Virus record (IMG/VR): IMGVR_UViG_3300042691_022333
Coordinates: 1 to 29,283 of that record
Reading direction: 5' to 3' (one strand)
Length of the DNA: 29,283 bases
Origin: a virus
The stretch's first letter is position 1; each line of letters begins with the position of its first letter. The position numbers and the translations under genes are program-made. Under the pieces are notes generated by a model. It saw only the letters and a list, made by a program, of their open reading frames with translations, searched no databases and was not told the DNA's origin. Positions 13,306-29,166 of this stretch are shown in pieces.

Positions 13306-13941
13306 TTATACTATTTCGTATCCTTGTAAAAAATATTTGTTTGCATGTTTGTATTTAACCTCTTCCATATCACCTGTTGGAGATTTCATTACAATCTTAT
13401 CATTTCTACCATAATTACTCTTTTTGGTAACAGTAGTAGAATATACTCTATCTCTGATAGTAATTCCATCCAAATGGTCAATTTCATGCTGAACAATAAC
13501 AGTCATCATTGTTTCTTTAGAAATTTGCTCATTTGCTCTATCTCCATCTGGATTAATTTCAAATGTTAATTCACCTAAATTATCCGTTTGTACAACAACT
13601 TTAGTTGCACGAATAGTTCTAATAGGCTTTGATACAGTTGAAGGAATCGATAAACATCCTTCGAAAAATAAAAATCCTTCTTGGCTTTTTGATACAATTA
13701 TAGGATTTAGTAAGAATAATTCTTCTTCACCAAATTTAATATAACAAGCTCTCTTTTTAATTCCCAATTGAGTTGCTGAAATACCTAACCCTGGATATTC
13801 TGTTAGTCCTTGTTCCAATTGTTTTCTTAACATATCCGCTTCATATTGTTTAAATTCTGTTTTAGGGCATGGGGTTTTTAAATACTCTACAAATTCCTTT
13901 GTTTGTAATCCATTTTTACCTTTGTCTACTATTAGTTTCAT
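13306..13941 (-). CDS. def: Peptide deformylase
   Basis: 211 residues with all three PDF motifs: GLGISATQ (51-58, motif GxGxxAxQ), EGCLS (94-98, metal-ligand Cys96) and QHEIDH (151-156, metal-ligand His152 and His156 with catalytic Glu153). It should therefore be an active metal hydrolase that removes the N-formyl group from new proteins. It is somewhat longer than typical phage forms (around 140-170), mainly through the ~45-residue N-terminal lead-in and ~45-residue C-terminal tail. Phage deformylases are known from marine T4-like phages, where they are thought to keep pace with rapid synthesis of host or phage membrane proteins. Its start is overlapped by the DUF2061 gene end. Confidence 0.95.
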   Translation of the reverse strand: MKLIVDKGKNGLQTKEFVEYLKTPCPKTEFKQYEADMLRKQLEQGLTEYPGLGISATQLGIKKRACYIKFGEEELFLLNPIIVSKSQEGFLFFEGCLSIPSTVSKPIRTIRATKVVVQTDNLGELTFEINPDGDRANEQISKETMMTVIVQHEIDHLDGITIRDRVYSTTVTKKSNYGRNDKIVMKSPTGDMEEVKYKHANKYFLQGYEIV

Positions 13942-14483: not shown

Positions 14484-15377
14484 CTATTTTTTTATAAACG
14501 GCAAAATTGCCAATTCTTTTGCTTTTGCTTCAACCATAATGTCCAAATCCAATTCGTATGTATTGGGGAGGGCATTAATAAGATAGGAATGTGCTTGTGG
14601 TTTTTCTTTTGGGTTGTTTTCATGTAATGCTTTAGATTCTGAATAGTGAACTTCTTGTGTAATGCCTTTTGGCCAAGTTGTAGCTGCTAATTTAAGTGCC
14701 TGTTCTTCTGATAAATCGCCTGTGCAAAATTGATGATGATGATAATCAAATACGATTGGAATGCCGGTGTTTTCGTAAATATACATAAGGTCTTTTACGG
14801 AATACATAGAAGCCTTATCATCATTCTCCAATGTCAATCGTTTGCGTACGCTTGGTGAGAGTCTTTTAAAGTTTGTAATCAATCTATCCATAGCAGATTG
14901 TTTATCGCCGTAGACACCATTACAATGAATATTAATATTGTTGTATGGAGTTTTAGATAACCCCATAAGGTCAAATATCTTACCATGTAATTCTAAATCA
15001 GCAAAAGTTTTTTGAATAACTGATTCATTTGGGGATGGAAGTACATTGAAAGGACCTGGATGCGAATTGATACGCATATTATGAAGTTTAGCGTAATCAC
15101 CTGCTTTCTTTAATTCAAACTTAAACTCCTTATAATCTTTTAATTGGGTAATATCGATATTATCACCCCAAGGAACTAAAGCAGATGATAAACGGAAAAA
15201 ATTAATTCCGTTTAATCTATTCCACTCTAATATTTTGATTAAATCTTTAGCATTTGCTAATGCCAACTCCGAAACATAATCCAAGCCTTTGGCATTGAAT
15301 GTTTTCTTCACCATTGAACGATTTGTGGTAACTTTCTTACCCATCGTCATATTAATACATGCATATCCTATATTCAT
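14484..15377 (-). CDS. uvsE: UV damage endonuclease (UvdE/UVDE family)
   Basis: 297 residues, close to bacterial UVDE (~280-310). It carries the family's TIM-barrel motifs in order: GYACIN at the N-terminus, INFFRLSSALVPWGDN, RINSHPGPFNVLPSPN, NIHCNGVYGDK, RLTLENDDK (metal-binding Glu/Asp) and IPIVFDYHHHQFC (metal-binding His). These enzymes nick DNA 5' to cyclobutane dimers and 6-4 photoproducts, starting repair without photolyase. A host-type promoter (TTTG-N20-TATATTTG) lies at 15382-15413, with the ATG only four bases after its -7 box, implying an almost leaderless mRNA. The nucleotidyltransferase follows after three bases. Confidence 0.93.
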   Translation of the reverse strand: MNIGYACINMTMGKKVTTNRSMVKKTFNAKGLDYVSELALANAKDLIKILEWNRLNGINFFRLSSALVPWGDNIDITQLKDYKEFKFELKKAGDYAKLHNMRINSHPGPFNVLPSPNESVIQKTFADLELHGKIFDLMGLSKTPYNNINIHCNGVYGDKQSAMDRLITNFKRLSPSVRKRLTLENDDKASMYSVKDLMYIYENTGIPIVFDYHHHQFCTGDLSEEQALKLAATTWPKGITQEVHYSESKALHENNPKEKPQAHSYLINALPNTYELDLDIMVEAKAKELAILPFIKK

Positions 15378-28255: not shown

Positions 28256-28594
28256 TTACGGCTTTGGTTTTAACATTACGGGCTTAGATACTGAATCCGA
28301 AGGAGTTCTTCCAAACAATCTAGAAGAAGGGGTAAAGCTTCGGTTAGAACATCTACTTAGGAAGTCCTCATCTGATTCTCCATCCGCCTGAACACATTCG
28401 GTATCATCCGTTCCCATATCAACATCATATCCCTCACGGTAATCTTTAACCTTTCCTTGTGATGTGTATTGACGAGAAGATGGGAACATATCTTGATTGG
28501 CTACCCTATTGAGATAATCCTCATCGCTCTCATTAGGAAGTCTATCGTACCTTCCTTCGTATATCTTTACCAATAAATTAGTTAAATCTTTCAT
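28256..28594 (-). CDS. Small acidic protein with internal duplication
   Basis: 112 residues with two copies of one motif: ESDEDYLNR...FPSSR (about 22-41) and ESDEDFLSR...TPSSR (about 73-92), separated by an acidic linker. The C-terminus is Pro/Lys-rich (KPVMLKPKP). Not a known family to me. The element AATATTTATT is three bases before its ATG, and the 359-bp non-coding region lies upstream. Confidence 0.65.
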   Translation of the reverse strand: MKDLTNLLVKIYEGRYDRLPNESDEDYLNRVANQDMFPSSRQYTSQGKVKDYREGYDVDMGTDDTECVQADGESDEDFLSRCSNRSFTPSSRLFGRTPSDSVSKPVMLKPKP

Positions 28595-28607: not shown

Positions 28608-28648
28608 AGATAAAATTAAATCGGTTCATTCAGCTTGGGATGGCTAGT

Positions 28649-28661
28649 AGTGTACTACACT
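28649..28661. repeat. Interrupted palindrome AGTGTA-C-TACACT (operator-like)
   Basis: Six-base arms around one central base, 55 bases upstream of the 112-aa gene start. It lies in the non-coding region and is symmetric, like a dimeric repressor site. No matching regulator gene is identifiable in the window. Confidence 0.4.
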
Positions 28662-28682
28662 CTATATCAAAAAGGGTTTCTG

Positions 28683-28748
28683 GCACAAAAAAACCTGGCT
28701 CGTAGCGTGAACGGGTCCGACCGGGCTACAGCTAAGCTCGGCTCTCTG
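28683..28748 (-). other. GC-rich structured island ending in a T tract (candidate ncRNA or attenuator)
   Basis: Over about 65 bases the GC content is far above the surroundings. On the minus strand it contains a stem GTAGC (28729-28725) pairing with GCTAC (28706-28702) with an inner CGG/CCG pair, then runs into TTTTTTT (28693-28687) and GTGC. The final 13 bases, GCACAAAAAAACC on the plus strand, are repeated exactly at 28887-28899. The stem is not adjacent to the T tract, so it is not a simple terminator. It might be a small structured RNA. It does not fold as a tRNA by eye. Confidence 0.4.
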
Positions 28749-28749
28749 C

Positions 28750-28851
28750 GTTACATGAAATTGGTCCATCGGTCACCTTGTTACATACCGTTACATGTCA
28801 TCCGTTGGGGTTACCTTTGTTACATATTGTTACATACCGTTAAATGGTTAG
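28750..28851. repeat. Helically phased GTTACAT repeat array
   Basis: Exact GTTACAT heptamers start at 28750, 28780, 28790, 28819 and 28829, with one-mismatch copies at 28810 (GTTACCT) and 28839 (GTTAAAT). Starts are mostly 9-10 bases apart or multiples of 10. Within it a 20-base unit at 28778-28797 recurs at 28827-28846 with one mismatch. The array lies in non-coding DNA and could be a cooperative protein-binding array such as an iteron, origin, packaging or operator region. Confidence 0.75.
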
Positions 28852-28886
28852 TTAATTAGATAAGCTTCTAACCGTCTCGCGATTGA

Positions 28887-28899
28887 GCACAAAAAAACC
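28887..28899. repeat. 13-bp repeat GCACAAAAAAACC, second copy
   Basis: Identical to 28683-28695. Here it forms the T tract of the terminator at 28891-28921. The first copy adjoins the GC-rich island. Confidence 0.8.
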
Positions 28900-28921
28900 G
28901 ATGAGCTATTACACTCACCGG
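28891..28921 (-). terminator. Rho-independent terminator after the 70-aa gene
   Basis: Minus-strand stem CCGGTGAG (28921-28914) with CTCATCGG (28905-28898), one G-T wobble and an 8-base loop, followed by seven Ts (28897-28891). It lies 32 bases past the stop of the 70-aa gene. Confidence 0.88.
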
Positions 28922-28953
28922 CCTAACCTATGAAAAATGAAAACACAAAATAT

Positions 28954-29166
28954 CTATTTCTTACTCAGCCACTTAGCGTAGTTAGTATATTGTACCATAA
29001 GCTCACTTGCTCTACTATCTACCCTATGTACCCTACTACCTATATTCATAGTCCTACACCACTCTTGAAATTCTATAAGAGATTGTGTCTCCTCTCTCTC
29101 CTTCTCTATACTATGTATCCTATCTATACTACTATATGCTTTTACTATACTATTATTTATACTCAT
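28954..29166 (-). CDS. Small unknown helical protein
   Basis: 70 residues: MSINNSIVKAYSSIDRIHSI, then KEREETQSLIEFQEWCRTM and SELMVQYTNYAKWLSKK. Helical and charged, no membrane segment or recognised domain. The stop is followed by a strong terminator. The upstream neighbour ends 28 bases before its ATG. Confidence 0.6.
   Translation of the reverse strand: MSINNSIVKAYSSIDRIHSIEKEREETQSLIEFQEWCRTMNIGSRVHRVDSRASELMVQYTNYAKWLSKK

Follow-up and report, generated by a model that had tools for sequence, protein, structure and literature searches.

Why would a phage genome hold seven or eight copies of one short direct repeat, most of them about one helical turn apart, within roughly 100 bp of non-coding DNA? 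We addressed this question for a GTTACAT array in a 29,283-base virus contig (IMG/VR record IMGVR_UViG_3300042691_022333), the whole of which was analyzed and is referred to as the window.

The GTTACAT array and its genomic setting

The array lies 0.4 kb from the upstream end of the contig, in a gap between two minus-strand genes, and the conserved genes nearby are likewise on the minus strand. An earlier note on this DNA had placed five exact and two one-mismatch GTTACAT copies in a non-coding region and had described a duplicated 20-bp unit containing two of them. These observations were confirmed. The seven copies, with starts from 28750 to 28839, all lie on the plus strand and follow one another at spacings of 30, 10, 20, 9, 10 and 10 bp, and a weaker eighth copy belongs to the second block (Table 1). 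The 20-bp unit TTGTTACATACCGTTACATG at 28778-28797 is repeated at 28827-28846 (19/20 identity) and occurs a third time at 28817 with 85% identity. A 74-amino acid plus-strand ORF spans the array (28635-28859) but was set aside on the grounds that relatives sharing this gene order have no gene here.

GTTACAT reaches the highest number of copies per ~100 bp of all 7-mers in the window. When the window was simulated 60 times with a first-order Markov model, five copies of any 7-mer within 86 bp were never obtained and four copies were obtained in one simulation. Outside the array, GTTACAT is found eight times in 29 kb. As about 5.4 copies are expected in the whole window, the rest of the window is without clear enrichment. 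The repeat is not equally dense elsewhere; equal density without phasing is what the earlier note had named as refuting its inference.

The window represents a T4-like phage, probably of Bacteroidetes. Its baseplate wedge protein shows 40-43% identity to those of Flavobacterium phage immuto and Microcystis phage Mel-JY01, and larger relatives of the window carry a T4-type portal. The Bacteroidetes host is suggested by the immuto match together with TAnnTTTG-like promoter sequences seen in a relative (L130). The window also encodes a UvdE-type UV endonuclease (14484-15377, minus strand; Pfam PF03851, E 2.4e-64) and a peptide deformylase-like protein (13306-13941, minus strand; PHROG 2890, E 1e-19).

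Table 1. Features of the array, the surrounding gap and the adjoining conserved element (window coordinates; L057 is the closest relative).
Feature	Position	Strand	Remarks
Upstream gene, 70-aa protein	28954-29166	-	80% identical in L057
Terminator-like hairpin of upstream gene	28895-28924	-	12 pairs; sequence common to window and L057
Degenerate copy GTTAAAT, block 1	28839-28845	+	One mismatch
Exact GTTACAT, block 1	28829-28835	+	Position kept in L057
Exact GTTACAT, block 1	28819-28825	+	With the 28829 copy forms GTTACATATTGTTACAT, containing TACATATTGTTACA
Degenerate copy GTTACCT, block 1	28810-28816	+	One mismatch; 9 bp to neighbor, likewise in L057
Exact GTTACAT, block 2	28790-28796	+	39 bp to matching block 1 copy; 39 bp in L057 too
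Exact GTTACAT, block 2	28780-28786	+	
Weaker eighth copy GTCACCT, block 2	28772-28778	+	AGGTGAC on gene strand; AGGTAAC in L057
GTTACATGAAATT with last exact GTTACAT (motif A of conserved element)	28750-28762	+	Relatives, gene strand: AGTTWCRTGTARCT
Conserved element, fixed length of ~125 bp	28642-28766	-	Gap-free alignment of 36 non-redundant relatives
Variable spacer of element	between motif A and core		Constant length (22-24 bp)
GGTCGGA core of element	28716-28722		
T-tract of element	28687-28693		
Dyad AGTGTACTACACT of element	28649-28661		
Downstream gene, 112-aa protein	28256-28594	-	

Conservation of the array and the adjoining 125-bp element

The gene order around the array is common to about 30 virus contigs. 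The array itself was found in two contigs, the window and its closest relative, L057. In L057, the block structure is alike: two exact or near-exact copies 10 bp apart are accompanied by a weaker copy 8-9 bp further, with a second block 39 bp on. Repeat positions counted along the array are 0, 10, 20, 29 | 49, 59, 67 in the window and 1, 9, 19, 28 | 48, 58, 66 in L057, so that they agree within 1-2 bp over about 70 bp. Identity between the two sequences is 27/28 for the core bases, compared with 9/18 for the degenerate copies and 13/25 for the linkers. More distant relatives lack the array and keep the last copy alone, inside the 125-bp element. The earlier note had tied the significance of the array to its conservation in close relatives; this holds for the closest relative, positions included, and does not extend to the more distant ones. 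A search for other close relatives sharing the terminator sequence returned none besides the L057 contig. Another site of that contig is located in a non-coding region of 840 bp.

Directly downstream of the array lies a conserved element of fixed length in which motif A, a spacer, the GGTCGGA core, a T-tract and a dyad follow one another. The element was also located in L003-L086 and at L130:1420-1560. The core region is G+C-rich within A+T-rich genomes. One copy per record was found in 10 of 13 records, nine of them without mismatch to the core pattern; the 176-kb genome G003 contains the element once, with two mismatches and with different flanking genes, and the window and L057 hold diverged copies. 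The element separates a block of small genes from the genes further downstream. RNAalifold gave no supported structure for it, and a swap test of the motif-A half against the spacer gave no specific pairing (10.53 native, 10.55 swapped). Constant length without covariation favors a DNA site over an RNA, and the element may serve as promoter, operator or replication site.

The relatives possess further non-coding features. Large non-coding regions at L131 ~2200-2460 (G001:26199-26437), G002:58246-58413 and G007:108203-108447 contain repeated and inverted 18-mers resembling TAACTCGTTGATTATCAA and possibly represent control or replication regions; those of G002 and G007 include ATTATGTTAAAT sequences resembling half a dif site. 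In G003, a repeated sequence similar to Bacteroidetes-type early promoters, CACAAAAAGCTTGACTTT...GTATCTTTA, is present at L130:1630-1680 and 2030-2090.

Flavobacterium phage immuto, an isolated phage with a 40% identical baseplate protein, has neither the box nor the element, and consequently no cultured model was found. The proteins neighboring the array had no match among the isolated phages of the phage collection, and a literature search for papers printing the repeat found none.

The TGTAAC pair in other phages and in bacterial genomes

Read on the gene strand, the core unit of the array is TGTAAC-N4-TGTAAC, and this pair recurs outside genes in other phages. A pattern scan of the viral collection for two copies at 10 bp identified 16 stretches, compared with 35 for the reversed pattern, and over-representation of the pair across all phages was rejected on this count. 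Because the reversed control exceeds the pair in frequency, support for a function comes from context and not from abundance. Fifteen of the 19 collection matches to the pair fall outside ORFs versus 4 of 35 for the reversed pattern, and the free positions of the pair are A[AT] in all 19. Several records contain multiple pairs (six in G014, five in G015, four in G017 and two each in G013 and G027) and no match to the reversed control.

In G015, the distance from the start of the pair to a TATRAT hexamer is exactly 58 bp at all five sites, each with a gene start within ~180 bp; none of 200,000 random quintets had a common distance in four of five. These promoter-like sites (L163:2299, 3000, 5312, 6921 and 7405) form a regulon-like set. 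Half of the G014 sites (3/6) start 28 bp before ACGTTG, inside a longer shared promoter-like sequence, and one of the two sites in the 164-kb phage G013 is located in a convergent gap and not before a gene. In the lineage of the window, no promoter was found at a fixed distance from the blocks, block 2 being 74 bp from the GGTCGG core in the window versus 67 bp in L057. The window has 23 proteins in common with G013 and eight with G014; with G015 the number falls to one, and G017 and G027 share no protein with it. The pair is thus used by phages that have hardly any genes in common, which is more consistent with a binder encoded by the host, or with convergence, than with inheritance of a phage regulator.

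The exact 19-mer of the pair has 24 matches in bacterial genomes, 13 of which precede one orthologous dehydrogenase-like (Gfo/Idh-like) gene and are flanked on the opposite side by a lipoprotein-like gene. The 13 genomes belong to mostly gut Alphaproteobacteria, and every one of these sites lies 50 bp upstream of a -10-like sequence (contigs L105, L106, L108-L111, L113-L115, L117, L118, L122 and L123 of the genome_contigs set).

The pair at 28819-28835 (GTTACATATTGTTACAT) contains the exact consensus of the RstA box, TACATNTNGTTACA (PMC4117788), with TACA half-sites head-to-tail at 10 bp, and the pair at 28780-28796 is one base off this consensus. Similar to the RstA box and other tandem boxes of the OmpR/PhoB family, the array presents two head-to-tail half-sites one helical turn apart. 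Boxes of this type lie at promoters, and the same pair is found at promoter-like hexamers in G015 and partly in G014. In contrast to the RstA box, which is one pair, the array comprises seven or eight half-sites in two blocks. A further difference to RstA-type systems is that no OmpR-type DNA-binding domain (PF00486) is encoded in ten phage records, several of them fragments, and a phage-encoded OmpR-type regulator is a less likely binder than one of the host. Among the repeated operators of phage regulators, the lambda CII site is a direct repeat, TTGC-N6-TTGC. The array shares with it the direct repeat, the 10-bp period and the location in a phage control region, but differs in sequence and in having seven or eight copies.

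A candidate two-block operator and alternative functions

We assign the array, with moderate confidence, to multi-copy DNA operators. On balance, the arrangement of the sites suggests to about the same degree a two-block operator for one regulator that would bind head-to-tail in the manner of OmpR and PhoB. The unit of recognition would be the paired head-to-tail half-sites TGTAAC-N4-TGTAAC, 10 bp apart on the gene strand, with weaker half-sites flanking each pair at about one helical turn. The two blocks, 39 bp apart, would act from directly upstream of the 125-bp element, which marks the beginning of the downstream gene cluster. A single regulator may occupy the half-sites side by side on one helix face, as OmpR/PhoB-type regulators do on tandem sites, and the two pairs, together with the weak half-sites beside them, could provide room for about eight protomers. 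Once bound, the regulator may alter transcription across the gap, which begins with the terminator-like hairpin of the preceding gene, and we infer that it would act on the downstream cluster. The binder is probably a host regulator, given that no OmpR-type domain is encoded in the ten phage records and that the box is shared by phages with hardly a gene in common.

The earlier note had proposed that one protein binds the phased sites and had offered iteron origins, partition or packaging sites and a multi-copy operator as examples. The putative binding by one protein fits all the evidence, and the operator is supported by the constant distance of the core pair from promoter-like hexamers in another phage. 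The iteron, partition and packaging options gained no positive support. As part of a replication origin, the array would offer iteron-like sites from which an initiator opens the adjoining DNA. This is an unlikely function even though iteron origins also consist of direct repeats, in multiple copies, within a non-coding gap, the 840-bp non-coding region holding the second site of the L057 contig is rich in inverted repeats, and DnaA-box-like TTATCCACA/TGTGGATAA sequences occur near two G013 sites. GC skew, a check proposed in the earlier note, tracks gene direction along four relatives and keeps the same sign on both sides of the 125-bp element. In addition, the proteins neighboring the array, on a contig that ends 0.4 kb upstream, have no Pfam or PHROG match naming an initiator, and the pairs in G015 are tied to promoter-like hexamers at 58 bp, a further difference from iteron origins. 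Packaging or partition is a very improbable function. The neighboring composite element does occur once per record where found, but in G003 and G007 a distance of 60-75 kb separates it from the gene for the large terminase subunit, and the records G014, G015 and G017 each contain several TGTAAC pairs.

The array could also be a drifting tandem duplication of the single GTTACAT-like site in the element and itself do little or nothing, consistent with the one site kept by the relatives, the restriction of the array to two contigs and the 19/20 identity of the 20-bp units. We regard this as rather improbable since the core bases are conserved far above the linkers between window and L057, the spacing is kept and other phages also have the pair at positions outside genes. 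Action as RNA, with UGUAAC repeats or hairpins located in a leader transcript, is very unlikely. A long inverted repeat in L057 does have one block in its loop, and the downstream element is richer in G+C than its A+T-rich genome, a frequent property of structured RNAs; however, the window strands fold no better than shuffles (z +1.0 and +1.1), the RNAalifold and swap analyses of the element were negative, and an Rfam search returned no match above chance. A start-stop minigene reading, based on the ATG-TAA in each copy, was considered and rejected, as the conserved position reads CGTGTAAC in many distant relatives and the ATG is therefore not kept.

An operator at this position would be of interest as transcription control in Bacteroidetes T4-like phages is little known. 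Quite tentatively, the array and the 125-bp element may jointly constitute a control locus, so far undescribed, in a large group of T4-like phages. Situated between the small-gene block and the structural genes, it would bring a host regulator together with a phage complex to switch the infection program. The array represents a short DNA bait for catching the binding protein, and the adjoining element, of equal length in 36 relatives, a second, separate experimental target. Phages whose gene contents barely overlap share the box, which points to a regulator of the host that may be exploited by several of them.
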